Origin: Hyphomicrobiaceae bacterium
GTDB lineage: Bacteria > Pseudomonadota > Alphaproteobacteria > Rhizobiales > Hyphomicrobiaceae
Assembly: GCA_016793635.1 (NCBI GenBank)
Contig: JAEUMD010000016.1
Coordinates: 40,238-104,237, forward strand
DNA: 64,000 nt
Direction of reading: 5' to 3'
Shown: in pieces, positions 1 through 19,045 of the stretch
How the letters are laid out: each line of letters starts with the position of its first letter
Position numbering within the stretch: the first letter of the stretch is position 1
Notes under the pieces: generated by a model
Database searches by the model: none
Told to the model about the DNA's origin: nothing
What the model saw: the letters and a program-made list of their open reading frames with translations, nothing else
Position numbers and translations under genes: made by a program

Positions 1-796
1 GCGGCGTCGAGACGATTACCGAGCCGGTGATCGGCACCTGCTGCGCGATCGTCAGCTGCACGTCGCCGGTGCCGGGCGGCATGTCGATGACGAGGGCATC
101 GAGATCGCCGTCGATATTCCAGGCAACGTCGAACAGCATCTGCTGCAGCGCCTGCACGACCATCGGGCCACGCCAGATGATCGGCATGTCCTCCTCGATG
201 AGAAAGCCGATCGACATGACGTCGAGGCCGAATGCCTTGAGTGGGATCAGCTTCTGCTGGTCCGCGGTCGCGGTCGGGTGCTGCCCGGTGAGGCCGAGCA
301 GGCGAGGCTGAGAGGGACCGTAGATGTCGGCGTCGAACATGCCGACCTTGAGGCCGAGCGCCTGCAGGCCGAGCGCGAGGTTGACCGCTGTCGTCGACTT
401 GCCGACGCCGCCCTTGCCGGACGCGACGGCGATGATGTGCCGGACGCCGGGCAGGCCGGGAATTGAGGTGACGCCGCGCGGCTGTGCGGCCACCGGGGGC
501 GAAGGGGCACGGGCGGGCTCAGCCGAGCCGTTGGAGGATTTCGAGCCCGCCGATTCCGCGGTCAGGACCGCCGTGACGTTGCCGACGCCCGGCACCTGCC
601 TCACGGCATCCTCTGCGGCGCGACGCATCGCTTCGAGCTCGCCTGCGCGCTCGATCGGAACGGTGATCGAGAAATAGACCCGGTCTTCCTTGACCACCGT
701 TTCAGAGACGAGGCCGAGATCGACCAGGTTGCCCGTGCCGTCCGGCCCCGGAACCGTCTTCAGCCTGTCGATGATCGCATTCTTGGTTACGGCCAT
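1..796 (-). CDS. apbC: ApbC/Mrp-type Fe-S cluster carrier P-loop ATPase (partial, C-terminus beyond window)
   Basis: The frame runs from an ATG at 796 to the window edge without a stop, giving 265 codons of a protein normally about 360-390 residues long. An N-terminal MIP18/DUF59-like domain (about 1-85) is followed by a Pro/Ala linker and a deviant Walker A, SGKGGVGKS, at about residues 126-134, then the family signatures FDADIYGPSQPR and VIDMPPGTGD. These ATPases bind and transfer [4Fe-4S] clusters in the cytosol. A GAGGGAAG ribosome site precedes the ATG. The gene lies on the dsr strand, 171 bases after the DUF4202 gene, so it could help mature the many Fe-S proteins encoded upstream; that link is inference. 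The family call is secure. Confidence 0.93.
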   Translation of the reverse strand, partial: MAVTKNAIIDRLKTVPGPDGTGNLVDLGLVSETVVKEDRVYFSITVPIERAGELEAMRRAAEDAVRQVPGVGNVTAVLTAESAGSKSSNGSAEPARAPSPPVAAQPRGVTSIPGLPGVRHIIAVASGKGGVGKSTTAVNLALGLQALGLKVGMFDADIYGPSQPRLLGLTGQHPTATADQQKLIPLKAFGLDVMSIGFLIEEDMPIIWRGPMVVQALQQMLFDVAWNIDGDLDALVIDMPPGTGDVQLTIAQQVPITGSVIVSTP

Positions 797-967
797 GAAT
801 TGTCTTCCCTCACCCTCGGGCCCGCTTGGCGGCACCCCGCGTTTCCTGCCGGCCCGCTTGTCGGGCCGTGCTTGTCGAGATTTAACATTCGCGTTTTGCG
901 ATGTTTGGTCCAAATGGCGATCCCGCCCCGCGATTGCAAGGCGCTGCCGGAAACGCACGGACCGCGA

Positions 968-1609
968 TCAGTCGATGGCGACGGCGGCGAGCTTGGCCAG
1001 CGTATCCGCCTCGCGCTCGACGGCCTTCATGATGAGCGCGCGCTTGGCCTCGGGCAGGTCGAGTGCGAGTGCCGCCTGATGCCCCTTCGGCGACATCTTG
1101 CGCAGCGTCTTGCCGACGATGTCGAGAACCTTGTCCTCGTCGTAGCTCGAGTACTTGGCGAGGAACTCATCGATGTAGTGCTCGACGAAGACCACGTCGA
1201 CGACGTTCTCGAGCGCCTGGCTCTCGCGGTCCTTCTTGAGCTGCTCTTTCTTCACCATCATCACCACGCGGGCGATCTCGTCTTCCGAGTAGCCGCTCTT
1301 GGCCATGAGCTGCGAAATCAGTTTGGCGTGATGCTCCCGGCAAGTCTTGCGCCAGTCGTTATAGCCGGTGCGGCCCTCGGGGAAACGGTCTCGCGGGATA
1401 TCCCAGCGGCGGATGTGCTGGGCGCGCGCGGCGATGCGCAGCGTCTCGGAAGCATCCGGATACATAGCGGCGAGGCGCTCGGTCATGCGCTCGGCGTAGA
1501 CAACCTCGTAGGGGCGCTTCACGCCGCCGACGACCGTCGAGCGTGGGTCGTCCGCATTGGCGGCATCGATGGCCTTGATGGTCTCGTCGAAGCGGGCAGA
1601 ATTGGTCAT
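968..1609 (-). CDS. DUF4202 family protein at the tail of the dsr cluster
   Basis: A 213-residue soluble protein. The start is the ATG at 1609, preceded by AGGAG at a good distance. It carries what I recognise as DUF4202 features: an N-terminal YEVVYAERMTERLA segment, RAQHIRRWDIPR, a W-rich stretch (YNDWRKTCREHHAKL), and VVFVEHYIDEF near residue 150, followed by KTLRKMSPKGHQAAL. The spaced His/Asp residues suggest an all-helical metal-dependent hydrolase-like fold, but no function is established. It starts 26 bases after the dsrN stop, so it probably belongs to the same transcript. Placement at the end of a complete dsr operon makes a role in sulfur metabolism plausible, not shown. Confidence 0.85.
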   Translation of the reverse strand: MTNSARFDETIKAIDAANADDPRSTVVGGVKRPYEVVYAERMTERLAAMYPDASETLRIAARAQHIRRWDIPRDRFPEGRTGYNDWRKTCREHHAKLISQLMAKSGYSEDEIARVVMMVKKEQLKKDRESQALENVVDVVFVEHYIDEFLAKYSSYDEDKVLDIVGKTLRKMSPKGHQAALALDLPEAKRALIMKAVEREADTLAKLAAVAID

Positions 1610-1635
1610 GATCGTCGGCTCCTGTTCGTTGCGGC

Positions 1636-3102
1636 TCAGGATGTCGAGAGCTGGCTTTGTGTTGGGCGCCGGCTCATCGGCGTCGCGGCGCGAGCGTCGT
1701 TGGTGCGTAACCGGGCAGCCTTGCGCTCTCGTACGAATGCTACGAAGCGGCGTGCCCAGGGATTGCGACTGGTATCGCGCTGATGCGTGAACGTGGCCAG
1801 CAGATTTTGCACCACGATACCGTCGTTGCGGCCGTCGATGCCCTCTCCGCGTGCCACGTCGAAGGCGTAGTCGAGCCCGGCGGGCAAGTTGCGAATGGCG
1901 GCGTAATGGAACTCGTGCGCGTTGATCCGCGTGCCTTCTCCGCCCGCGCCGTCGCAGGCCGGCCATGGCGACGCGGCGGTTTCGACGAGGCGAACCTGGC
2001 CGCGGCCCTGCGGCTTGGGGTTCATCACCGCGTCGCCCGGTACGACGCCGACCATGTCGCCCGTTTCATCGCCGAACGAGATGCTGCGGCACATGTACAT
2101 GAGCCCGCCGCATTCAACGTAGGCTGGCATGCCGCTTTCGATCGCGGCGCGAATATCGGCGCGAAGTCCGCTGTTGGCGGCGAGGGCCTCGATCTGCGTC
2201 TCGGGGAATCCGCCGCCGATCAGCAGTCCATCGGCGTCGGGCAAACGCTGGTCGCAGAGCGTGTCGAAAAAGACGAGATCTGCACCTGCCCGCTCGAGGG
2301 TCTCGAGATCGTCGGGATAGTAGAACCCGAACGCAGTATCGCGGGCGACCGCGATGCGAACTTTCGCCCCCACCGGAGCGTCGGCTGGCGCCGGTACACT
2401 TGGCGGTCTGGCAACGGGAGGAGCGGTTGCCGCCAGTGAACGGATCGCGTCGAGGTCGAAGCTCGCCCGCACGGCATCGCTGATCGCGGCAATGCGGGTC
2501 TCCACCTCGCCCGTCTCCGAGGGCGTAGTAAGTCCGAGGTGGCGTTCACGCACGGCGAGGCGTTCGTCACGCCGCAGGCATCCGAGGATCGGCAGATCGG
2601 TGTAGCGGGCGACGGCCTCGCGCAGCTTGGCCTCGTGACGAGGGCCTGCGACCTTGTTCAGTACGACACCGGCAATGCGCACCGCGGGGTCGAACATGCG
2701 GTAGCCGAGCAGCAAGGGCGCGATGCCGCGCGTGATGCCTTCGGTATCGACAACCAGAATGACCGGCGCACCGAGCAGTTTCGCCAGCGCGGCATTGCTG
2801 TCGCTGCCCTCGAGATCGACGCCGTCGAACAGTCCCTTGTTGGCCTCGATGATCGAGATGTCGGAACCTGCGGATTTCTCAGCGAACATGGCCGCGATCT
2901 CGTCGCGGTTCTGGGTGTTGAAATCGAGATTGTAGCAAGGCCGCCCGACCGCGCGCGCATGCCACATCGGATCGATATAATCCGGCCCCTTCTTGAAGGT
3001 CTGCACCGCGAGGCCGAGTTCGCGCAGCGCACGCGCCAAGCCGAGCGTCACCGTCGTCTTGCCGGAGGACTTGTGTGCGGCGGCGATCAGCAGGTGGGCC
3101 AA
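1636..3102 (-). CDS. dsrN: DsrN, cobyrinate a,c-diamide synthase-like glutamine amidotransferase
   Basis: A 488-residue CobB/CbiA-type protein. It has an N-terminal ATP-binding domain with SSGKTT at about residues 12-17 and a C-terminal class I glutamine amidotransferase domain whose nucleophile lies in AYVECGGLMYM near residue 330. In dsr loci DsrN is thought to amidate sirohaem to the amide form used by DsrAB. The start is an uncommon TTG at 3102, supported by AGGAG nine bases upstream; no in-frame ATG is as well placed. It follows dsrP by about 110 bases on the same strand. The C-terminal 30 residues are Arg/Ser/Thr-rich and probably disordered. The assignment is strong because of both sequence and position. 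Confidence 0.93.
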   Translation of the reverse strand: MAHLLIAAAHKSSGKTTVTLGLARALRELGLAVQTFKKGPDYIDPMWHARAVGRPCYNLDFNTQNRDEIAAMFAEKSAGSDISIIEANKGLFDGVDLEGSDSNAALAKLLGAPVILVVDTEGITRGIAPLLLGYRMFDPAVRIAGVVLNKVAGPRHEAKLREAVARYTDLPILGCLRRDERLAVRERHLGLTTPSETGEVETRIAAISDAVRASFDLDAIRSLAATAPPVARPPSVPAPADAPVGAKVRIAVARDTAFGFYYPDDLETLERAGADLVFFDTLCDQRLPDADGLLIGGGFPETQIEALAANSGLRADIRAAIESGMPAYVECGGLMYMCRSISFGDETGDMVGVVPGDAVMNPKPQGRGQVRLVETAASPWPACDGAGGEGTRINAHEFHYAAIRNLPAGLDYAFDVARGEGIDGRNDGIVVQNLLATFTHQRDTSRNPWARRFVAFVRERKAARLRTNDARAATPMSRRPTQSQLSTS

Positions 3103-3211
3103 CTCACGCGACTCCTGGTTTCAAGATGCATCGGCTGGTCGGAACCGCGGCGCCGCTGATCGAACGGCCTCCCGCGAGCCGGCCGCGAGGCGCCCAGTCG
3201 CGCGCCTCGCC

Positions 3212-4429
3212 TCAGCCGTCGTACTCTTCGCCCTTCGGCAGAAACGGCATCACCTTCAGCGCCACGCCGGTTATGAGCATGGCGATCGAGACACCGGCGA
3301 TGCCGAGCAGGACCTCCGGCAGCGACGGCGCGTAGTTTGCGATCTGGCCGTCGAGGAACGAGCTCGACACCTCCTTGCCGGGGAACAGCTTGAGCGGGAA
3401 CGCCTGTCCGCCGATGATGGTCACGTACATGAAGCAGAGGCCGCCGATCAGAGCGAGGATCGAGGCGACGGTGAGCGCGCGCCGCTCGGAGATGTAAGCC
3501 TTGCCGGCATTGCTTCCGGCGAGCAGCAGAAGGCCCGCTGGAATAACCAGCCCGACGACGATGTGCCCGAGCCAGAACAGCTTCGTATAGATGCCGCCGT
3601 CGCGCAGGATGAACATCTCGACGTCCCAATGCTGCGCGGCATAGAGGTTCGTCAGGTGCTGGACGATAGTGAAGTAGAGCACCGCCAGCGCGAAGATGAT
3701 GAGCAGGCCGCGGAAGCTCGACACCATCTCGTCGTTGAGCAGGCGCTGGCGCGTCTCGCGGCACATGGTGAGCAGCACCAGAACCGTGAATGCGAGACCG
3801 TAGAGGAACGATGCGGCGATGAACAGCGGCGCCATGATCGCCGCGTCGTAGGCTTCGCGCGCGACGAGGAAGCCGAAGATCGAGCCGGTGCCCGTGGTGA
3901 GCGCGAGGCGCCACACGAACGCGAACCAGCCAGCGGCCTTGGTGTAGGCCGGATTGCGAGCGGTCCCCCGATCCATCATCGTGAACAGGTAGGCCGCCAC
4001 GATGACCAGGAAGCCCGTGTAGAGATAGATGTTCCAGGAGAAGATGGACTTGAAGTTATAGGTCGTCATGGCGACGGTCAGACGCTCGGGCCGTCCGAGG
4101 TCCAGCACCAGTACCGCGAGGCCGCCGGCCAGCAGCGCGATTGCAAGCACACCGGAGAGGCGTGCGAACGGCTTGTAGGCGAGCCGGTTGAACACGGAAG
4201 AGATCGACGCGACGTTGAGTGCGCCGGAGGCGGCGACGATCAAGAACACGGCGAACACGTGCGGCGTGCCCCACACCACGGCATTGTTCATGCCCGTGAC
4301 GATGTGACCGTGATGCTCCATGTACAGGACGGCGCCGAGCCCGACCATGATGAGGGCGGCGTGCATGGCGAGCAGCCCCCAGAACAGCACGCTGTGGTCG
4401 TCGAGCTTCTGATACGTGATATGCGCCAT
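3212..4429 (-). CDS. dsrP: DsrP, NrfD/PsrC-type integral membrane quinone-interacting subunit
   Basis: A 405-residue polytopic protein with about ten hydrophobic segments, beginning at residues 15-36 and ending near 375-395, as in NrfD/HybB-type subunits. It is the membrane part of the DsrMKJOP complex and is expected to exchange electrons between the periplasmic DsrJO proteins and the quinone pool. The ATG at 4429 is preceded by a purine-rich stretch. The gene follows dsrO by about 50 bases. Family and position agree, and no residues seem missing. Distinguishing DsrP from other NrfD relatives by sequence alone would be hard; the operon settles it. Confidence 0.95.
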   Translation of the reverse strand: MAHITYQKLDDHSVLFWGLLAMHAALIMVGLGAVLYMEHHGHIVTGMNNAVVWGTPHVFAVFLIVAASGALNVASISSVFNRLAYKPFARLSGVLAIALLAGGLAVLVLDLGRPERLTVAMTTYNFKSIFSWNIYLYTGFLVIVAAYLFTMMDRGTARNPAYTKAAGWFAFVWRLALTTGTGSIFGFLVAREAYDAAIMAPLFIAASFLYGLAFTVLVLLTMCRETRQRLLNDEMVSSFRGLLIIFALAVLYFTIVQHLTNLYAAQHWDVEMFILRDGGIYTKLFWLGHIVVGLVIPAGLLLLAGSNAGKAYISERRALTVASILALIGGLCFMYVTIIGGQAFPLKLFPGKEVSSSFLDGQIANYAPSLPEVLLGIAGVSIAMLITGVALKVMPFLPKGEEYDG

Positions 4430-4481
4430 GGTTGTTCTCGTCCTTCGGACCTTGGCGCCGGCGCGTGGCCGGCGGGTCTCG

Positions 4482-5333
4482 TCAGATATTCTGGTAGTAG
4501 ACGCCGGGATCCGTGCCGAGGTCGTCGCGGATGCGCGTCGTGCGGTAGGTCGCGACGCGCTTCGCGATCTCGGAATTGGGATCGTTGAGGTCGCCGAAGA
4601 TCATCGCGTTGTTGCCGGTCTTCGTGCAGGCCTCGACGCACGCGGGCGTGCGGCCGGAATCGACGCGATGAACGCACATCGTGCAGCTCTCGACGCAGCC
4701 CTTGCCGCGCGGCGCATATTCCTTCTGGTCCTGCAGCGGCTCGTGGACGAACGAACGCGCCTTGTACGGGCACGCCATCATGCAATAGCGGCAGCCGATG
4801 CAGATGTGGCGGTCGACCAGCACGATGCCGTCGGCGCGTTTGAACGAGGCACCCGTCGGGCACACGTCGACGCACGGCGGATTGGCACAGTGCTGGCACA
4901 TCATCGGCAGCGAGAACTGCGAGCCGTTCTTCGGATCGCGAACCGTGAGCTTGCGGATCCACTGCGCGTCCGTCTCCGGGCGCGTTGGCGTTGCCCAGCC
5001 GTTCTCCGTCGAGCAAGCCGTGACACAGCTCGAGCAACCGTCCTGGCATTTGCCGGCGTCGATCAGCAGGCCCCAGCGGTTCTTGGCCGAGACCTTCTGG
5101 TCCGCTGGACGGGCATTGGCCGGCGTGCTCTCGGCGTAGGCCATCAACGTGACGCCCGGCGCAAGCGCCATGGTCGCGAATGCGGAAGCAGACTTTAGGA
5201 AGAAGCGGCGTGCGGCGCTGATCGGTGCGATCTCGTCGGACTGGAGCGACGCGCCGCCCGATGCGCAGCCGCAACCGCTGCCGCAGCCACCGCCATTCTT
5301 CGCTGAGCGTTCCTCGAAGCTCGAGCAGCTCAT
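4482..5333 (-). CDS. dsrO: DsrO, Tat-exported periplasmic ferredoxin-like Fe-S protein
   Basis: A 283-residue protein that starts at ATG 5333, overlapping the dsrJ stop as ATGA and preceded by GGAGG. A Gly/Cys-rich N-terminus leads into a Tat signal, AARRFFLKSASAF, near residues 40-52. Mature sequence carries four cysteine clusters of the DmsB/NrfC type: DGCSSCVTACS, CQHCANPPCVDVCP, CIGCRYCMMACP and CVESCTMCVHRVDS followed by CVEAC, enough for several [4Fe-4S] clusters. It should relay electrons between the triheme DsrJ and DsrP in the periplasm. An upstream extension of the frame is only the antisense-like shadow of dsrJ; the coupled ATG with its strong ribosome site fixes the start. Confidence 0.95.
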   Translation of the reverse strand: MSCSSFEERSAKNGGGCGSGCGCASGGASLQSDEIAPISAARRFFLKSASAFATMALAPGVTLMAYAESTPANARPADQKVSAKNRWGLLIDAGKCQDGCSSCVTACSTENGWATPTRPETDAQWIRKLTVRDPKNGSQFSLPMMCQHCANPPCVDVCPTGASFKRADGIVLVDRHICIGCRYCMMACPYKARSFVHEPLQDQKEYAPRGKGCVESCTMCVHRVDSGRTPACVEACTKTGNNAMIFGDLNDPNSEIAKRVATYRTTRIRDDLGTDPGVYYQNI

Positions 5334-5800
5334 CGCTGAACCTCCTTCAGGTAGGCGGAGAGGGCCGCCACATCGCCGTTGTGAGGGTCCGCGTCGGCCG
5401 CGCCCGATTGCGTCGCCGCGCCTTCGGGACGCGAGGCGTGGCACTCGAAGCAGTCGAGCTTCACCGCCGCATAGTCGTGGCACGTACGGCAGAAGTGCTT
5501 GGGATCGGCAACCGTCACCGCCTTTCCGTCGTCGCCCTTGACCGCGTGGCAGTCGACGCAACCCTTGAGGCTGAACGTGCTGGTGCGCAGCCCTTCGTGC
5601 ACGGTGCCGTCACGCTGGTGCTTCAGCACGCTCATATGGTTACGGCGCATCCACCCCGTTTCCGCGACGCACTTGTCGCCGCGTCCCTTGGCGACCTGGG
5701 GCGGGCCAGCGGATGCCGGGTCCGGTAACACCCCGAGAGACAGGATCGCGAGCAGCAGCCATGCCGCCGCGACCCTGCCGATATGCCATGCGATGCGCAT
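5330..5800 (-). CDS. dsrJ: DsrJ, periplasmic triheme cytochrome c
   Basis: A 156-residue protein with an uncleaved-looking hydrophobic N-terminus (about residues 8-30) and three CXXCH haem sites: CVDCH, CRTCH and CFECH, between about residues 80 and 120. The Cys in GDKCVAETGW (about residue 44) corresponds to the unusual cysteine haem ligand of DsrJ, and NHM supplies further potential ligands. It is the periplasmic haem subunit of DsrMKJOP. Start: ATG at 5800; a TTG at 5803 is directly upstream and AAGGA could serve either. The stop overlaps the dsrO start, so the two are translationally coupled. Confidence 0.95.
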   Translation of the reverse strand: MRIAWHIGRVAAAWLLLAILSLGVLPDPASAGPPQVAKGRGDKCVAETGWMRRNHMSVLKHQRDGTVHEGLRTSTFSLKGCVDCHAVKGDDGKAVTVADPKHFCRTCHDYAAVKLDCFECHASRPEGAATQSGAADADPHNGDVAALSAYLKEVQR

Positions 5801-5812
5801 CAACGATCGTCC

Positions 5813-7801
5813 TTACTGGCCGAGGCCCATCTCGATGTAGCCCGTCGGGCAGACGTCGGCGCAGATGTGGCAGCCGACGCACATCGAGTACTCGGTATAG
5901 ACGTAGCGGCCGACGGCACGCTCCTTCTTCGGCACACGCTTCACGGCCGTCTGCGGGCAGAAGATCACGCAGTTGTCGCACTCGAAGCACATGCCGCAGC
6001 TCATGCAACGCTTGCCCTCGTTGATCGCCTGCTGCTCGGTGAGGCCCTGGATGCGCTCTTCAAAGTTGCCGAGCACCTCGTCGGCGCCGATGTGCTTTTC
6101 CTCGCGCTTGCCGCGGGCCTCGTACTTGAAGTGCCCCTTGAACAGGTCGCTGTGCGGGATGATCTGGCTGCCCGAGAGATCCTCGTAGTTATGAATGGCG
6201 AACTTGGCGGCGTTGGTGCCGCGCGTCTGGCCGTGCTTGTAGGGCTCGGGATCGAGCGCGCGCTGATGCAACTCGCGCAGCAGGTTGAAGTGGTGCACGT
6301 CCACCTTCGGGCGCTTGTCGACAGGCGATCCGTTGAGGAAGTGGTCGATGCTCTCCGCGGCGATGCGGCCGTGGCCGATGGCGGTGGTCAGCAGGTGCGG
6401 ACGTACGATGTCGCCACCGGCGAAGTGCTGCGGCTTGCCCTTCACCTGATAGAGCGGCGTCACGTTGACGAAGCCCTTGCCGCCGTCGAGCGATGCGAGG
6501 CCGCCGGTGAGGTCGCCCATCTGGCCGATCGCCGAGATGATGATGTCGGCTTCGATTTCGAACTCGCTGTCCGGCACCTTCTCCGGCGTGTTGCCCTTCA
6601 TCACGCACTTGCACATCTTGAGGCCGCGGGCGAGGCCGTTCTCGTCACGCAGCACCTCGAGCGGCATCACGCCGCCGAGGATGGTGACGCCTTCGCGCTT
6701 GGCATCCTCGCGCTCGCGCTCCGACGCGGTCATCTTCTCGAGCGGGAACAGCGACGTCAGCGTCGATTGCAGGCCCTCGCGGCGCATCGTGCCGGCGACG
6801 TCGTGCGCCGTGTAGCCAAGCACGTTGTGGGCGTCGATGTCCTTCTCGGCCTTGTGGGTGATGTGGCCGAGACGGCGAGCGACGGACGCGACGTCGATCG
6901 AGGTGTCACCACCGCCGACGACGACGACTTTCTTCGCGGTGCCGACGACCCAGCCCTGGTTGAAGGCATCGAGGAATTCGACGCCGGTGATGCAGTTCTC
7001 GGTGCCTTCCCAGCCCGGCACCGGCAGACCGCGGCCCTTCTGTGCTCCAACGGCCCAGAAGATCGCGTCGAATGCCTTCTCCAGCTCTTCGACGGAAATG
7101 TCGGTGCCGACCTTGGTGTTGGTGCGGACGTCGACGCCCATGTCGAGGATGCGGCCGATCTCCTTGTCCAGCATGTCGCGCGGCGTGCGGTAGCCGGGAA
7201 TGCCGTAGCGCATCATGCCGCCGAGCTTGCTGTGCGCCTCGAAGATCGAGACGGCGTGACCCTTGCGGCGCAGGAAGTAGGCGGCCGCGAGGCCGGCCGG
7301 GCCGCCGCCGATGACGGCGACCTTCTTGCCCGTGAAGTCGCCCGCGGCCGGCAGCTTCAGTCCGTTCTCGTTGGCCCAGTCGCCGACGTACTGCTCGACG
7401 GCGTTGATGCCGACGAAGTCGTCGACCTCGTTACGGTTGCAGCCGTCCTCGCACGGGGCGGGGCAGACGCGGCCCATGGTGGCGGGGAACGGGTTGGCAT
7501 CGATCATGCGCTCGAACGCATACTGCTGCCACTTCATGTCCTTCGTCGGCGGCTTGTCCATTTGGCGCGCGATGGCGAGCCAGCCGCGGATCTCGTGACC
7601 CGAAGGGCAGGACCCCTGGCACGGCGGCGTGCGGTGCACGTAGGTCGGGCACTTGTAGGAGTGGTCGCCCTGGAAAATCTTCTCCGTCAGGTCCTGCCAG
7701 CCGGTCCACATGTTGTCGCCGTTCTTGAAGCGGCGGAATGTGAGCTTGGTGTCATCGGCCGGGGCGCCAGAGGACTTGGGCTTGTTCGCCATGTCGTTCA
7801 T
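5813..7801 (-). CDS. dsrL: DsrL, iron-sulfur flavoprotein NAD(P)H:acceptor oxidoreductase
   Basis: A 662-residue protein related to the glutamate synthase small subunit. It has N-terminal cysteine motifs (CQGSCPSG near residue 63 and CPAPCEDGC near residue 115), an FAD site GGGPAGLAAAYFLRRKGH near residue 161, a pyridine nucleotide site GGGDTSIDVASVA near residue 300, and a C-terminal ferredoxin domain with CMSCGMCFECDNC and CVGCHICADVCP. In sulfur oxidisers DsrL takes electrons released by DsrAB to NAD+, and its presence is a marker of the oxidative direction. The ATG at 7801 has a near-perfect AAGGAGGT. The gene lies between dsrK and dsrJ, only 12 bases after dsrK. Confidence 0.96.
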   Translation of the reverse strand: MNDMANKPKSSGAPADDTKLTFRRFKNGDNMWTGWQDLTEKIFQGDHSYKCPTYVHRTPPCQGSCPSGHEIRGWLAIARQMDKPPTKDMKWQQYAFERMIDANPFPATMGRVCPAPCEDGCNRNEVDDFVGINAVEQYVGDWANENGLKLPAAGDFTGKKVAVIGGGPAGLAAAYFLRRKGHAVSIFEAHSKLGGMMRYGIPGYRTPRDMLDKEIGRILDMGVDVRTNTKVGTDISVEELEKAFDAIFWAVGAQKGRGLPVPGWEGTENCITGVEFLDAFNQGWVVGTAKKVVVVGGGDTSIDVASVARRLGHITHKAEKDIDAHNVLGYTAHDVAGTMRREGLQSTLTSLFPLEKMTASEREREDAKREGVTILGGVMPLEVLRDENGLARGLKMCKCVMKGNTPEKVPDSEFEIEADIIISAIGQMGDLTGGLASLDGGKGFVNVTPLYQVKGKPQHFAGGDIVRPHLLTTAIGHGRIAAESIDHFLNGSPVDKRPKVDVHHFNLLRELHQRALDPEPYKHGQTRGTNAAKFAIHNYEDLSGSQIIPHSDLFKGHFKYEARGKREEKHIGADEVLGNFEERIQGLTEQQAINEGKRCMSCGMCFECDNCVIFCPQTAVKRVPKKERAVGRYVYTEYSMCVGCHICADVCPTGYIEMGLGQ

Positions 7802-13705: not shown

Positions 13706-15019
13706 TTACTCGGCGGCCTCGGCCGCAGAGCCGTCCTTCTTGAGACCCTTGCGGGCGAAGTACTTCTCGGCTTCGTCGGTGAAGTCATCCGTGCGGACGT
13801 AGCAGGACGTGCGCGGATGCTTGACCATGTTCGGATCCGGCTCGATGCCGAGGGCATTGAGGAACGCCGGCAGACCGATACGGTCGAGCGTCTCGCCCAC
13901 GCGCTCGTGCTCGAGGGCGTTCTCGGCGAAGAAGTCGATCATGTTGCGGGCGAACTCGCGCAGCTTGGCGAAGTCCTCTTCCGTCTCGAGCTTCATGAAC
14001 GGAATGATCATGGTGCCCATCAGGTCGCCGACCTTGAGCGAGCGCTTGCCGCCGATCAGGATCGAAGCACCGCGATCGTCGCCCGGAGCCAGAGCCTTGT
14101 GCATCACGTTGATGCAGTGCATGCAGCGCACGCAGCTCTTGTTGTCGATCTCGAGCGTGTTGTCGTCGTTGAGCGAGACCGCGCGGGTCGGGCACATCGC
14201 GACGACGTGGTCGATCGTGTACTTGCGGCCGTGATCCGCGACGTACGTCTTGACCTCTTCCTGATTGATCTTGATGTCGTCGCGCCAGGTGCCGATCACC
14301 GCGAAGTCGGCGCGGTGGATGGCGTTGACGCAATCGTTGCCGCAGCCCGAAAACTTGAACTTGAACTTGTACGGGAGCGCCGGGCGATGAATCTCGCTGA
14401 CGTTCTCGTTCAGGATCTCACGGTGCACGCGCGGCTCGTCGTACATCGACATTTCGCAGCGGGCGTGACCGACGCAGCTCATCGAGGTGCGGAGTGCGGG
14501 GCCGGCGCCGCCGAGGTCGAAGCCGAGCTCGTTCAGCTCGTCGAAGGCCTTCTGGCAGCCCTCGGTCGTCGTGCCCTGGAACATGATGTCGCCAGACTGG
14601 CCGTGGAACGCGATCAGGCCCGAGCCATGACGCTCCCAGATGTCGCACATCTGACGCAGCACGTTGGTATCGTAGTGATAGCCAGCCGGCGGCATGACGC
14701 GGAGCGTGTGGAACTCCTTCGACTTCGGGAACTTGTCGCCGACTTCGGAGAAGCGCGGAATGATGCCGCCGCCGTAACCGAACACCGAAACGGTGCCGCC
14801 CTTCCAGAAGCCGAGGCGCTCGGTATAGGAGTGCTCGAGCTGGCCCAGAAGGTCGTTCATGTACTCGGCGTAGGGCTTGTCCTCGGAGTCGCGCAGCCGC
14901 TTCAGGCCGGTGACGAAGCTCGGCCACGGGCCGCTTTCCAGTTCATCGAGCTTCGGCGTCGACCGCTTCGCAAAGGAAGCGCCCGTTGCAGCCGCGCCCG
15001 TCTTCGTCTCATCCGTCAT
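13706..15019 (-). CDS. dsrA: DsrA, dissimilatory sulfite reductase alpha subunit
   Basis: A 437-residue protein with the sirohaem-[4Fe-4S] cysteines in SCVGHARC (about residues 180-186) and SGCGNDCVNAI (about 223-229). These are followed by a ferredoxin domain (CPTRAVSLNDDN, then SCVRCMHCINV near residue 290) and a C-terminal KHPRTSCYVRTDD segment. It forms the catalytic core with DsrB. AAGGGAAG precedes the ATG at 15019. It is the first gene of the minus-strand dsr operon; its control region lies between here and the divergent dioxygenase gene. The adjacent dsrEFH and dsrL place it with the oxidative type. Confidence 0.97.
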   Translation of the reverse strand: MTDETKTGAAATGASFAKRSTPKLDELESGPWPSFVTGLKRLRDSEDKPYAEYMNDLLGQLEHSYTERLGFWKGGTVSVFGYGGGIIPRFSEVGDKFPKSKEFHTLRVMPPAGYHYDTNVLRQMCDIWERHGSGLIAFHGQSGDIMFQGTTTEGCQKAFDELNELGFDLGGAGPALRTSMSCVGHARCEMSMYDEPRVHREILNENVSEIHRPALPYKFKFKFSGCGNDCVNAIHRADFAVIGTWRDDIKINQEEVKTYVADHGRKYTIDHVVAMCPTRAVSLNDDNTLEIDNKSCVRCMHCINVMHKALAPGDDRGASILIGGKRSLKVGDLMGTMIIPFMKLETEEDFAKLREFARNMIDFFAENALEHERVGETLDRIGLPAFLNALGIEPDPNMVKHPRTSCYVRTDDFTDEAEKYFARKGLKKDGSAAEAAE

Positions 15020-15132
15020 GACGTTCTTCCCTTCTGTTCGCGCCCCTTTTCCGGGCCGCCATCCTGCATTGCCTGTGCATTCTGACTTGGGAGCTGCCTG
15101 CCGGCCGCACCCTAAATTCTCCGAAAAACCCT

Positions 15133-15139
15133 ATTTATA
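15133..15139 (-). promoter_or_regulatory. Possible -10 element for dsrA
   Basis: On the minus strand the sequence TATAAAT lies about 115 bases before the dsrA ATG in a conspicuously AT-rich patch (15112-15215). No clear -35 hexamer is found at the ideal spacing, so the call is tentative. Confidence 0.3.
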
Positions 15140-15269
15140 GAATGGGTAAGCTCGAAGAACCTGCCGTCAGGATAATCCATACTACGCTTATCGGAAAATC
15201 CCTTTTGGTTACCCTCTGAGCGCATTTATCGTTGCGGAATGCCCGCGCGGCCCATCTTGCCATGCGCTT

Positions 15270-15292
15270 GCATATTCACAAGTATGCATATT
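15270..15292. promoter_or_regulatory. Candidate operator in the dsrA/dioxygenase divergent region
   Basis: GCATATT occurs twice, at 15270-15276 and 15286-15292. The stretch GCATA-8-TATGC (15270-15287) is also an inverted repeat. It sits in the AT-rich centre of the 358-base divergent spacer and could bind a dimeric repressor controlling dsr and the plus-strand genes. The rest of the spacer holds a GC hairpin near 15332-15352 (CCCAC...GTGGG) and no gene. Confidence 0.4.
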
Positions 15293-15377
15293 ATGACTGA
15301 CTAGGACAGGCGCACAAGTCCAAAGTCGAATAACCCACCCGTTCGGGTGTGGGCGGTTGCTCTCACCGGGCAATTTC

Positions 15378-16454
15378 ATGGTGCCAAGTCAGGCGATTAG
15401 TGCTGCAGGTGCGGCGCAGTGGCGAGACTTTCTTCGGTGGGCGCAACCTGCGTTCCGGGTGGTCGAGGTGGAGGAAACGGCCTTGAGCAACGTTGCGGAA
15501 AGCCTCGGGATCACGAACGCGGACGCCGCTTCGGCACGGTCGCGCCCGTGCGGGAATCCGTTTGATCTCGCGGATGAAAAATCCTACGCGGCATGGCGCG
15601 AGTGGAAGCTCTCGAGCTATCCGAGGCGCGCGGCCGAGATCCGATTCGACATTTCCGGGTTGCTTGCTCCGACCGCGGGAGAGAAGGCGGCGCTCGTTGC
15701 GGCTTGCGCCGTCTGCAACATGGCGATTTACCGCGTTCCGGTGCGTCCCGAGACCACGGGAGCTGATGCGGCAGCGGTGCTCGGGGGCGAGTTGAGGCAA
15801 TTTGCCTCACACTTCGCTCTCGGCATCGTCGAGGATCACCGTTCGGCGGGGGACGACGGCATCGTCGCAATCGAGGTTACCGAACAGGCGTCGAAACGCG
15901 CGTTCATCCCGTACACGAAGCGCGCGCTCAACTGGCATACGGACGGCTACTACAATCCTCCCGACGTGCCGATCCGGTCGATGATCTTGCATTGCGCGCG
16001 TCCCGCCCGCGAGGGTGGCGAGAACGCGCTGCTCGATCCCGAAATCGCCTACATCCGCCTGCGCGATGCGAGCCGCGCGGAAATCGCGGCGATGATGCAT
16101 CCTGAAGCGATGATCATTCCGGAGAGCGTCGAGGAGGACGGGCGCGTGCGTCCGACCAGCACCGGGCCGGTGTTCATCGTCGATCCGGTCGACGGCAATC
16201 TGACCACGCGATATACCGCGCGCACCCGCAACATCCATTGGCGCGACGACGCGGATACGCGAGCAGCCGTCGCCCGACTCGATCGATTGCTCGGACACGA
16301 GGAGGAGCCGCTGATCCTCAAGTACCGCCTCGAAGCGGGCGAGGGACTGCTCTCCAACAACGTCCTTCACACCCGCACGGCGTTCGAGAACGAGGACGAG
16401 GCGGGCCGCCTGCTGCTGCGCGCGCGCTATCGCCAGCGGATCGCCGGAACCTGA
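15378..16454 (+). CDS. TauD/TfdA-like Fe(II)/2-oxoglutarate-dependent dioxygenase
   Basis: A 358-residue protein. The iron-binding facial triad is visible as NWHTDGYYNP (H-T-D, about residue 193) and a distal His in LLSNNVLHTRTAFE near residue 335, followed by the RARYRQR arginines that would hold 2-oxoglutarate. Substrate is unknown; relatives act on sulfonates, betaines, alkyl sulfates and others. It opens the plus-strand set divergent from dsrA. The start is uncertain: ATG 15378 is chosen; a TTG 21 bases upstream (15357) and a GTG directly after are alternatives, none with a strong ribosome site. A link to supplying sulfite or reduced sulfur from an organosulfur compound is speculation from position. 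Confidence 0.82.
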   Translation: MVPSQAISAAGAAQWRDFLRWAQPAFRVVEVEETALSNVAESLGITNADAASARSRPCGNPFDLADEKSYAAWREWKLSSYPRRAAEIRFDISGLLAPTAGEKAALVAACAVCNMAIYRVPVRPETTGADAAAVLGGELRQFASHFALGIVEDHRSAGDDGIVAIEVTEQASKRAFIPYTKRALNWHTDGYYNPPDVPIRSMILHCARPAREGGENALLDPEIAYIRLRDASRAEIAAMMHPEAMIIPESVEEDGRVRPTSTGPVFIVDPVDGNLTTRYTARTRNIHWRDDADTRAAVARLDRLLGHEEEPLILKYRLEAGEGLLSNNVLHTRTAFENEDEAGRLLLRARYRQRIAGT

Positions 16455-16582
16455 GCCGGAACCCGAGACCGGCGCGACGAAATCACGGTGACGGTAACGC
16501 CAAGTCCGAAACACCGAGTCCGAAGCAACGAAAAGAACCAGAACAAGCGGCACAGCGCCGCCCGAGGAGAGGATTAAGCACC

Positions 16583-16825
16583 ATGTCAGAGCTCGAACTC
16601 GAGCGTGAGCCGGGGATGCTCCAGCTCAGCGACCTCATCATCTACAACCCGCAGGTCAAATCGTTCGAGGAGCTTCTCGTGTTGGTCGCCGAAGCCGCCG
16701 CGAACGGCGCGCGGTTCATCAATTTCGACGTCAAGCCGGACTTCGTCGACACGCCGCGCACTTGGCAGCAGGTGATCGAGCGCGTCTTCAATCTGGGTGC
16801 GCGCTACCTCGAGGGCCGCAAGTGA
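16583..16825 (+). CDS. Small conserved-looking acidic protein of unknown function (dsr neighbourhood)
   Basis: An 80-residue protein without cysteine, signal peptide or membrane segment. The centre reads LSDLIIYNPQVKSFEELLVLV, then ARFINFDVKPDFVDTPRTW, and the end is helical (QQVIERVFNLGARYLEGRK). GAGGAGAGG precedes the ATG. Its stop overlaps the GTG start of the next gene by two bases, which shows translational coupling. I do not recognise a family. Position between a dioxygenase and cysG suggests a role tied to the dsr system. Confidence 0.75.
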   Translation: MSELELEREPGMLQLSDLIIYNPQVKSFEELLVLVAEAAANGARFINFDVKPDFVDTPRTWQQVIERVFNLGARYLEGRK

Positions 16826-17085
16826 GCGATCCCGCCGTCACCGACATCAAGGAGATCGCGGCGCCCTACCGGCGGCAGATTCTGCTTCAGGACGTGCAGC
16901 ACGAGAGCGGCCTGCGGCTGCTTCGCATCCGGATTCGCGAGGGGCGGCGGTTCACCATCATGGATATCGATGGGCCGACGGCGGAAGCGCTCGCGGCTGC
17001 ATTGGGAGATTGGAGCCGGCAGGCCGGCAGCGCCGCGATCCTCGACGATCCCGATGCCGCCGCGCCGAGAGGAGACAGCACCTGA
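16822..17085 (+). CDS. Small protein of unknown function, coupled to the preceding gene
   Basis: An 87-residue protein starting at GTG 16822 within the stop of its neighbour (GTGA). The core, APYRRQILLQDVQHESG followed by LRLLRIRIREGRRFTIMDID, is beta-strand-like and strongly patterned, so it is probably a real folded domain. The tail is Ala/Asp-rich. No cysteines. I cannot name the family with certainty. It precedes cysG by 91 bases and probably shares a transcript with the dioxygenase gene. Confidence 0.75.
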   Translation: MSDPAVTDIKEIAAPYRRQILLQDVQHESGLRLLRIRIREGRRFTIMDIDGPTAEALAAALGDWSRQAGSAAILDDPDAAAPRGDST

Positions 17086-17176: not shown

Positions 17177-18655
17177 GTGGAGCAGCTTCCTATCTGCCTC
17201 GACATCAAGGGTCGGAAAGTCGTCGTCGCCGGTGATGGCGCCGGTGCCGCGAGAAAGGCGCTGCTGGCCGCCGGTGCGGGCGCCGTGGTGACGGTCGTCG
17301 CCGCGTCCCCGTGCGACGAGCTGCGCGAGCTCGCGGCCGCCGGCCGTTTTGGACTGGCAGAGCGCGGACTTCACGCCTCCGATGTCGCCGGCGCCGCGAT
17401 CGTTTTTGCGGCCGCCGAGCACGACGAGCGCGACGGCGAGGCGGCGCGTCTCGCGCGAGAGGCGGGAGTTCTGGTCAACGTTGTCGACCGAGCCGATCTC
17501 TCGACCTTCACCATGCCCTCGATCATCGACCGATCGCCGCTGGTCATCGCGGTTTCCTCCGCCGGTGTTTCGCCGCTGCTCGGCCGAATGATGCGCCAGC
17601 GGCTGGAGGCGACGATCCCCGCGGCCTTCGGCAACCTGACGCGCTTCCTCGGCTCCATCCGCGGCGTGCTCAAGCGCCGCATTCCCGACGTTCGCAATCG
17701 CCGTCGGTTCATCGAGACCGTCGTCGACGGCACGGTCGCCGATCTTGTGCTCGCCAACGACGAGGAGCGCGCGCGCCAGCAGCTTGACCAGAGCCTGGAA
17801 GCCTTCCTCGCCGACGGTCACAACACGCAGGGCGAGGTGTATCTCGTCGGCGGCGGGCCGGGCGATCCGGATCTGCTCACATTCCGAGCGCTACGGCTCA
17901 TGCAGCGCGCCGACGTCGTCGTCTACGACCGTCTCGTCGGAAGCCCGATCATGGATCTCGTGCGCTCGGACGCGGAGCGCATCTACGTTGGCAAGAAGCG
18001 CAACCAGCACGCCATGCAGCAGGACGACATCAGCCGCCTGCTCGTCACGCTGGCGCGGCAAGGCAAGCGCGCGCTTCGCCTCAAGGGCGGCGATCCCTTC
18101 ATCTTCGGCCGTGGCGGAGAGGAGATCGAGCTGCTCGCGGCGGAGGGCATTCCGTTCCAGATCGTGCCGGGCATCACCGCTGCGTCCGGGTGCGCGAGCT
18201 TCGCCGGCATTCCGCTCACGCACCGCGATCATGCGCAATCGTGCGTATTCCTGACCGGCCACACCAAGACCGGGCGCCTCTCGGCCGATTGGAGCACGGT
18301 GCTGCAGCCGGGCCAGACGGTCGTCATCTACATGGGGCTCGCGTTCCTGGGTGAGCTGATGCGCGATTTCATCGCCCGCGGCGCCGACCCCGAACTTCCC
18401 GTCGCCGTCGTCGAGAACGGTACGCGCCCGAACCAAAAGGTGGTGACGGCGACCGTTGCGACCATCGCCGAGGCCGCCGCCGCCGCCGGCATCCAGGGTG
18501 GTAGCCCGGCGCTGACGATCATCGGCTCGGTTGTGACGCTGCGCGACAAACTCGCCTGGTTCAACGAGGCACAGCCGCCGACCGTATCGGCGACGGCGGC
18601 CTTCAGCGCCGAGGTCGGCCGCGCCGGTCCACCGGCGAAGCCGGCCCGTTCATAG
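17177..18655 (+). CDS. cysG: CysG, fused sirohaem synthase
   Basis: A 492-residue protein. The N-terminal part (about 1-210) is the precorrin-2 dehydrogenase/sirohydrochlorin ferrochelatase with a Rossmann site VVVAGDGAGAARKAL. The C-terminal part (about 215-470) is the uroporphyrinogen-III C-methyltransferase with VYLVGGGPGDPDLLT, YDRLV and LRLKGGDPFIFGRGGEE. Together these steps make sirohaem, the cofactor of DsrAB, which explains its place here; DsrN would then modify it. The start is GTG 17177 with GGAG eight bases upstream. The last 25 residues are an Ala/Pro tail. Confidence 0.95.
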   Translation: MEQLPICLDIKGRKVVVAGDGAGAARKALLAAGAGAVVTVVAASPCDELRELAAAGRFGLAERGLHASDVAGAAIVFAAAEHDERDGEAARLAREAGVLVNVVDRADLSTFTMPSIIDRSPLVIAVSSAGVSPLLGRMMRQRLEATIPAAFGNLTRFLGSIRGVLKRRIPDVRNRRRFIETVVDGTVADLVLANDEERARQQLDQSLEAFLADGHNTQGEVYLVGGGPGDPDLLTFRALRLMQRADVVVYDRLVGSPIMDLVRSDAERIYVGKKRNQHAMQQDDISRLLVTLARQGKRALRLKGGDPFIFGRGGEEIELLAAEGIPFQIVPGITAASGCASFAGIPLTHRDHAQSCVFLTGHTKTGRLSADWSTVLQPGQTVVIYMGLAFLGELMRDFIARGADPELPVAVVENGTRPNQKVVTATVATIAEAAAAAGIQGGSPALTIIGSVVTLRDKLAWFNEAQPPTVSATAAFSAEVGRAGPPAKPARS

Positions 18656-18706: not shown

Positions 18707-19045
18707 ATGGCAATCGAGTTCAATGGGCAGGAGATCGAGACCAACGACAAGGGGTATCTCGAGAACCCGGAGGATTGGAGCGAAGGGCTCGCGCAGCTGC
18801 TGGCGGACAGCGACGGTCTGACGCTCGGGCAGGAGCAGATGGACATCATCAACTACCTGCGCGACGAGTATTTCAACAACAACAACAACCAGCCGAACAC
18901 GCGCACCATCGTCAAGGCGATGGCCGAGCAGTGGGGCAAGGAAGTCGACCAGAAGTACGTCTACGACCTCTTCAACGGTGATCCCTCGAAAATCGCCGGG
19001 CGCATTGCGGGCCTGCCCGAGAGCCGGCGCAAGGGCGGCTACTGA
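18707..19045 (+). CDS. Cysteine-less DsrC-family protein (RspA-like)
   Basis: A 112-residue DsrC/TusE relative. The N-terminus (MAIEFNGQEIETNDKGYLENP) and core (EQMDIINYLRDEYF) match DsrC, and the arm IAGRIAGLPESRRKGGY aligns with the DsrC arm. Both redox positions are glycine: CysB becomes Gly in AGRIAG and the penultimate CysA becomes Gly in GGY. The protein has no cysteine at all, so it cannot carry sulfur; such members have been called RspA and are suspected to be regulators. AAGGAGG precedes the ATG. A run of asparagines sits at about residues 57-61. It follows cysG by 51 bases and ends just before a strong terminator. Confidence 0.9.
   Translation: MAIEFNGQEIETNDKGYLENPEDWSEGLAQLLADSDGLTLGQEQMDIINYLRDEYFNNNNNQPNTRTIVKAMAEQWGKEVDQKYVYDLFNGDPSKIAGRIAGLPESRRKGGY

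Follow-up and report, generated by a model that had tools for sequence, protein, structure and literature searches.

A dsrQ-like oxygenase gene and two small partner genes co-occur with dsrA of the reverse Dsr pathway

Introduction

What does a TauD-like oxygenase do beside the genes of the reverse dissimilatory sulfite reductase (Dsr) pathway, a main sulfur oxidation route? The question is raised by a 64,000-nucleotide stretch of DNA from a Hyphomicrobiaceae bacterium (assembly GCA_016793635.1, contig JAEUMD010000016.1, positions 40,238 to 104,237; called the window below), in which the gene of such an oxygenase and the genes of two small proteins, here called S1 and S2, lie divergent from dsrA. 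A preliminary description of the locus had reported three open reading frames (ORFs) in this position, the last two encoding 80 and 87 residues and overlapping as GTGA, followed by cysG, and all of this was confirmed in the sequence.

According to the passages found of PMC7596348, the name dsrQ goes back to Lenk et al. (2012) and denotes a TauD-like gene preceding dsr clusters; the gene also occurs in isolates of the Myxococcales, Deltaproteobacteria and Verrucomicrobiales. The gene in the window is tauD-like, adjoins the cluster dsrABEFHCMKL..., which opens with dsrA, and is divergent from it. By its type and position it fits dsrQ, and this name is used in the following. The earlier view that the three ORFs match none of the known dsr accessory genes did not hold for the oxygenase. 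As to the small proteins, DsrR is IscA-like, judging from a reference title in PMC11406059, and neither S1 nor S2 had a Pfam match to the IscA/HesB (Fe-S_biosyn) family at E values up to 1.

Co-occurrence of the oxygenase with dsrA

The distribution of the three genes was compared in 60 genomes of relatives, 14 of which are dsrA-positive (G045 was counted from dsrA fragments). The oxygenase was detected in all 14 (Fisher p 6e-14, not corrected for kinship), as was DUF6967, the family of S2, and S1 was found in 13 of them, the exception being G048, which carries two oxygenase copies. None of the three had a match in any of the 46 dsrA-negative relatives; a weak match in G033 (3.6e-5, 30% across one third of the protein) had been discarded before dsrA was counted. 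In 12 of the 14 genomes dsrQ is divergent from dsrA (in G045 dsrA is cut by the contig end), in G046 some 14 kb separate the trio from dsrA, with the trio at the opposite end of the dsr operon, and G050 has dsrQ and dsrA on different contigs. Within genus g3 the full gene set is present in G028 and completely missing in G005, which suggests that these genes are acquired or lost as a set. The trio had been proposed as a module, with its absence beside dsrA in related sulfur oxidisers as the sign of chance adjacency. The relatives do not show such an absence, and a conserved module linked to Dsr is supported.

A broader sample of 398 genomes from the phylum contained 54 dsrA-positive ones (G206 and G230 from fragments). 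The oxygenase profile matched 41 of the 398 genomes at an E value of 1e-30 or better, 40 of them among the 54 dsrA-positive genomes and one among the 344 others (p 8e-42, again without correction for kinship); with a strict dsrA cut-off the counts are 38/52 and 3/346. In the samples the co-occurrence is nearly one-to-one. The lone dsrA-negative genome with an oxygenase, G081, has a DsrE gene over the cut-off, so an assembly gap may have hidden its dsrA. As markers for the direction of Dsr, DsrE was found in 52 of 55 genomes, and DsrD in none of the 55, where no positive control responded and absence is not shown. DUF6967 and S1 were present in 10 and 5 of the 398 genomes, respectively, all of them dsrA-positive, and in both samples the small proteins were found solely in dsrA-positive genomes.

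Most of the dsrA-positive genomes of this sample (44/54) belong to 13 families that are not part of the window's class (f57, f60, f63, f68, f69, f73, f75, f77, f79, f84, f85, f89 and f91). Thirty of these 44 carry the oxygenase, and none showed a match to DUF6967 or S1. In 6 of the 30 the oxygenase shares a contig with dsrA and is at most 5 kb from it, and in the three of these 6 that were inspected (L162-L164) the order is dsrA-dsrB-dsrL-oxygenase on a single strand. In the remaining 24 the oxygenase is distant from dsrA or on a separate contig, and the tie there is by co-occurrence only. Two dsrA genes over the cut-off, with about 520 and 480 bits, were observed in 10 of the 44 genomes, and in the two of them inspected, G123 and G151, dsrQ follows the lower-scoring dsrABL.

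Conservation of the dsrQ locus

Scanning bacterial and archaeal genomes gave at least 587 relatives of DsrQ, the best 80 of which were kept as named loci, a choice that biases them toward the window's kind. By their titles these loci come from alpha-, beta- and gammaproteobacteria or from Proteobacteria at large, except L125 (Halobacteria archaeon), which is taken to be misbinned; records titled Rhodobacteraceae and Rhodobacterales belong to the same DsrQ family. In the examined flanks dsrA was found in 72 of the 80 loci, S1 in 56 and S2 in 42. In these 72 dsrA lies upstream of dsrQ on the opposite strand, with intervening genes in one layout. Four of the eight loci without dsrA are truncated near dsrQ (L094, L100, L124, L137), and the other four (L111, L112, L126, L131) show at least 4 kb without dsrA on both sides of dsrQ. 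Because dsrQ is divergent from dsrA in 72 loci but lies on the same strand in L162-L164, the linkage survives rearrangement.

Chance adjacency was rejected on the co-occurrence with dsrA in the relatives and in the phylum sample, the presence of dsrA in the flanks of 72 of the 80 loci and the Fisher tests; its probability is practically nil. Pairwise distances of DsrQ, S1 and S2 also correlate with those of DsrA (r 0.52 in 67 loci, 0.84 in 50 and 0.58 in 39, respectively; DsrA-DsrB for comparison 0.86 in 62), and none of 500 permutations reached the values of the three. Little weight is given to these correlations, since taxonomy is enough to produce them and the comparison had no control gene from outside the cluster.

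The same loci bear on the earlier suggestion that the trio feeds organosulfur-derived sulfur into the Dsr pathway. Catabolism of imported sulfonates or other organosulfur compounds, with the sulfite fed into the pathway, would agree with membership in the TauD family, and it is close to a published speculation: the passages found of PMC7596348 already consider intracellular or ambient sulfonates for dsrQ, much as the preliminary description did. However, no supporting context was found. E. coli TauA and TauC had no match at 1e-5 in the 80 loci or in the window, and TauB, a generic ABC ATPase, matched in 4 of the 80, near the locus ends. Sulfite would, in addition, enter after reverse Dsr (rDsr) and not before it, and the near-strict tie to dsrA in the samples also speaks against import, which we consider improbable. 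That the oxygenase is tied to dsrA and not to genes of sulfonate transport favours a function within reverse Dsr, and the oxygenase probably belongs to the pathway itself.

The active site of DsrQ and its possible substrate

DsrQ is a member of PF02668 (70 bits, cut-off 27). H152, D154, H296, R309, R313 and R315 are present in all 80 DsrQ relatives; as these had been selected by motifs containing H152 and D154, or H296, the conservation of the first three is partly due to the selection, which did not involve R309. In an hhalign comparison R309 and R313 align with the RIMHR motif of E. coli TauD, whose arginines we take to be the ligands of 2-oxoglutarate and the sulfonate. DsrQ would be expected to catalyse a hydroxylation with Fe(II), O2 and 2-oxoglutarate. 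Alignment A1 comprises the window and 11 relatives (L048 and L057 left out), and alignments A4, A5 and A6 comprise 26/81, 28/57 and 27/43 of the sequences available from the window and the 80 loci.

An oxygenase tied to a sirohaem/Fe-S enzyme system could also remove O2 locally and so shield rDsr through uncoupled turnover of 2-oxoglutarate. This would be wasteful chemistry, and the invariant residues of DsrQ extend well beyond the metal and 2-oxoglutarate sites, which suggests a real substrate. We consider such a shielding role very improbable.

The reading that we favour, tentatively and with less than even confidence, is that DsrQ acts on an intracellular anionic substrate, in the first place a sulfonate arising from sulfite of Dsr origin, and that S1 and S2 serve as its accessory subunits. 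DsrQ would use Fe(II), O2 and 2-oxoglutarate to hydroxylate an anionic compound made by or for reverse Dsr inside the cell. The first choice would be a dead-end organosulfonate that arises when metabolites react with the sulfite set free by rDsrAB. Hydroxylation beside the C-S bond, the chemistry of TauD, would give the sulfite back. Such a scheme would suit sulfur oxidisers that are exposed to oxygen, and an importer would be unnecessary. The co-translated S1 and S2 may form a complex with DsrQ and bind or tune it.

Several points weigh against this proposal. The substrate is a guess. The similarity of TauD and DsrQ is weak (hhalign E 0.063), their alignment leaves the distal histidine of the metal site displaced by two columns, and the nearest solved protein by profile, TmpA (5.8e-8), is not a sulfonate enzyme. 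Fourteen of the 54 dsrA-positive genomes have no DsrQ match at 1e-20. DsrQ is missing from 343 of the 344 dsrA-negative genomes, and if some of these make much sulfite, a general role in sulfite damage is disfavoured. In one group of families the dsrQ regions contain neither S1 nor S2, and many named loci lack one of the two, so the small proteins are not universally required. The adjacency of cysG is equally compatible with a cofactor role, and the presumed tie of DsrQ to O2-exposed organisms goes back to a citation in PMC7596348.

Sirohaem synthase next to the trio

That the trio might help cofactor assembly had been suggested before, and the support for this idea is the neighbouring cysG. 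It follows the trio in 13 of the 14 dsrA-positive relatives, in two of them with an opposite-strand DsrC-like ORF in between, and was found near dsrQ in 21 of the 80 named loci. DsrQ might thus act in maturation and hydroxylate sirohaem or a precursor of it, or a residue of DsrAB, of DsrC or of the cysteine-free DsrC paralogue encoded behind cysG, in an O2-dependent step needed by aerobic rDsr organisms. The position of dsrQ after dsrABL in three inspected regions of one group, a DsrC-like ORF at most 4 kb from the dsrQ centre in 50 of the 80 loci and the many invariant arginines of DsrQ are consistent with this. So is the cluster dsrNCABL-hyp-dsrQ-dsrEFH of the Verrucomicrobiales, given in the passages found of PMC7596348, where a reference title links DsrN to sirohaem amide. 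However, no cysG was found in the examined flank of 59 of the 80 loci, and the 14 dsrA-positive genomes without DsrQ speak against a maturation step as well. We know of no enzyme of the TauD family that acts on a tetrapyrrole. A maturation role is possible but doubtful.

Small partner proteins and their exchange with a Cas6-like protein

S2 belongs to DUF6967 (PF22295; 91.7 bits, cut-off 27). Structure prediction of the small proteins, proposed earlier as a test, gave for S2 a bbbba sheet that may resemble the repeats of Pur-alpha and PC4 (a weak match) and for S1 a small, mainly helical domain; S1 had no fold match and no family above the cut-off. In an open-licence literature search no paper was found that names DUF6967, and the passages found of PMC11406059, PMC6397845, PMC4287430, PMC6382920 and PMC5573963 do not mention the small partners.

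The genes of the trio are tightly coupled. The GTG start of S2 overlaps the stop of S1 by 4 nt, and by coordinates the same overlap is found in 10 of the 13 genomes with both small genes, the window included, which suggests that it is maintained. With starts picked by a script, the gap between S1 and S2 does not exceed 14 nt in any of the 26 loci with both, and that between dsrQ and S1 does not exceed 30 nt in 45 of 56.

By their partners the 80 loci comprise 26 with S1 and S2, 30 with S1 only, 16 with S2 only and 8 with neither. A Cas6-like protein was found in 0/26, 28/30, 15/16 and 3/8 of these groups, respectively, and hence in 43 of the 46 loci with exactly one small protein. Two of the Cas6-like proteins were tested for their family, and PF09559 and TIGR02807 (Cas6/Cmx6) were over the cut-off; examples lie at L140:7361-8026 and L099:11091-11792, with 44 further dsrQ loci, and the copy of L140 also matches a solved type I-B Cas6 (1.5e-14). 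The Cas6-like ORF overlaps S2 in the 11 loci measured (starts guessed) and follows S1 within 40 nt in 8 of 21 loci. A simple exact-repeat test found no CRISPR-like array in the examined flanks of the 46 Cas6-like loci. In the window's genome Cas6 had no match, in a search where no positive control responded. The literature search returned no paper that joins dsrA with Cmx6, or an orphan Cas6 with dissimilatory sulfite reductase.

Judged by their titles, loci with S1 and S2 are mainly alphaproteobacterial, those with S1 and the Cas6-like protein mainly gammaproteobacterial and those with S2 and the Cas6-like protein mainly betaproteobacterial; L128 and L130, titled gammaproteobacterial or Woeseiaceae, are exceptions with S1 and S2. 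Since the partner patterns mostly track lineage, they point to few evolutionary events and not to 72 independent ones.

These partners open a further reading, in which DsrQ is a sensor of O2 and 2-oxoglutarate that controls dsr expression via small nucleic-acid-binding partners, namely S2 with its Pur/PC4-like sheet and the Cas6-like protein of many beta- and gammaproteobacterial loci. We regard such regulation as unlikely. A more specific form, an O2-responsive control module of reverse Dsr with DsrQ as the sensor and interchangeable nucleic-acid-handling partners, namely the Pur/PC4-like DUF6967 protein and, in the beta- and gammaproteobacterial loci, a CRISPR-derived RNA-binding protein of the Cas6 family that has no array in the examined flanks, appears distinctly unlikely. 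The data do not decide among the sulfonate, maturation and regulation readings, and the sulfonate reading is favoured.

Further neighbours of dsrQ were observed in L099 (12444-13400 and 13397-14002) and L140 (9356-9976), among them a DUF3050 protein in L099 and a protein of about 200 amino acids without Pfam match, whose family is present in 13 of 81 clustered sequences. In a viral collection dsrQ was found on two contigs, L180 and L181. L180 had no match to the dsr reference set except dsrQ. On L181 (positions 1-5906, an IMG/VR contig) phage-like ORFs directly beside dsrQ, including a reverse-transcriptase-like ORF at 1418-2488, were recognised by eye. As dsrQ lies there at the contig end beside phage-like ORFs, this end is read as the host flank of a prophage.

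Gene boundaries and the dsrA-dsrQ intergenic region

The features of the locus are listed in Table 1. The trio is real, but the start of the dioxygenase at 15378 given in the preliminary description has to be revised. dsrQ probably starts with the TTG at 15483, as indicated by the GGAGG in front of it, an in-frame stop upstream of this position in G001 from the same genus and ATG starts near or after this point in the relatives G022, G045 and G046 (picked by a script).

Table 1. Features of the dsrA-dsrQ locus (positions in the window).
Feature	Position	Strand	Basis
dsrA, sulfite reductase alpha subunit	13706..15019	-	TIGR02064 over cut-off, 563.8 bits
Divergent intergenic region shared by dsrA and dsrQ	15020..15482	.	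alignment of five genomes
GGAGG, likely ribosome-binding site of the oxygenase	15470..15474	+	sequence
dsrQ, TauD/TmpA-like Fe(II)/2-oxoglutarate oxygenase, 323 aa from the corrected TTG start; H152-x-D154...H296, R309, R313	15483..16454	+	PF02668, 4e-19
S1, 80 aa, no named family, predicted as a small and mainly helical domain	16583..16825	+	
S2, 87 aa, DUF6967 (PF22295), predicted bbbba sheet	16822..17085	+	PF22295, 2.7e-26
cysG, sirohaem synthase	17177..18655	+	tetrapyrrole methylase and sirohaem-synthase domains
Cysteine-free paralogue of the DsrC family	18707..19045	+	sequence, family match

The intergenic region holds a direct repeat of GCATATT (15270-15276 and 15286-15292, 16 bp apart), which lies in a stretch common to four genomes of the same genus and is possibly the site of a regulator. 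The sequence TGCATATT was found in just 7 of 72 intergenic regions, including that of the window (shuffled mean 0.9), and the paired CATATT form in 4 of the 72. TAATATA is enriched (20/72 against 3.7 after shuffling), as is the inverted form ATATT/AATAT (10/72 against 0.8), both judged by a crude shuffle.

Comparison with known systems

The oxygenase is tied nearly one-to-one to dsrA in the samples, in loci titled alpha-, beta- and gammaproteobacterial as well as in other families of the phylum. This implies a pathway step or an adaptation to O2 that seems to be absent from current models. The small partners and their exchange with the Cas6-like protein are direct genetic targets for locating the missing step.

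DsrQ shares PF02668, the HxD...H metal site and the C-terminal arginine pair with the TauD/TfdA superfamily, to which E. coli TauD, TmpA (6npb) and the gamma-butyrobetaine and trimethyllysine dioxygenases belong. It reaches just 7-14% of the NCBIfam equivalog cut-offs for TmpA and for the trimethyllysine and butyrobetaine dioxygenases and, unlike the superfamily, it is tied to dsr without a TauA or TauC match nearby. S2 is a member of DUF6967, a family without known function, and its predicted bbbba topology weakly resembles that of Pur-alpha/PC4-like sheet proteins.

The account of DsrQ in the passages found of PMC7596348 names neither the two small proteins nor the Cas6-like protein. The oxygenase is already known as DsrQ, and S1 and S2 appear undescribed as its partners. 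The oxygenase gene itself stands as the dsrQ of Lenk et al. (2012) does, TauD-annotated and on the opposite strand beside the dsr cluster of a sulfur oxidiser.
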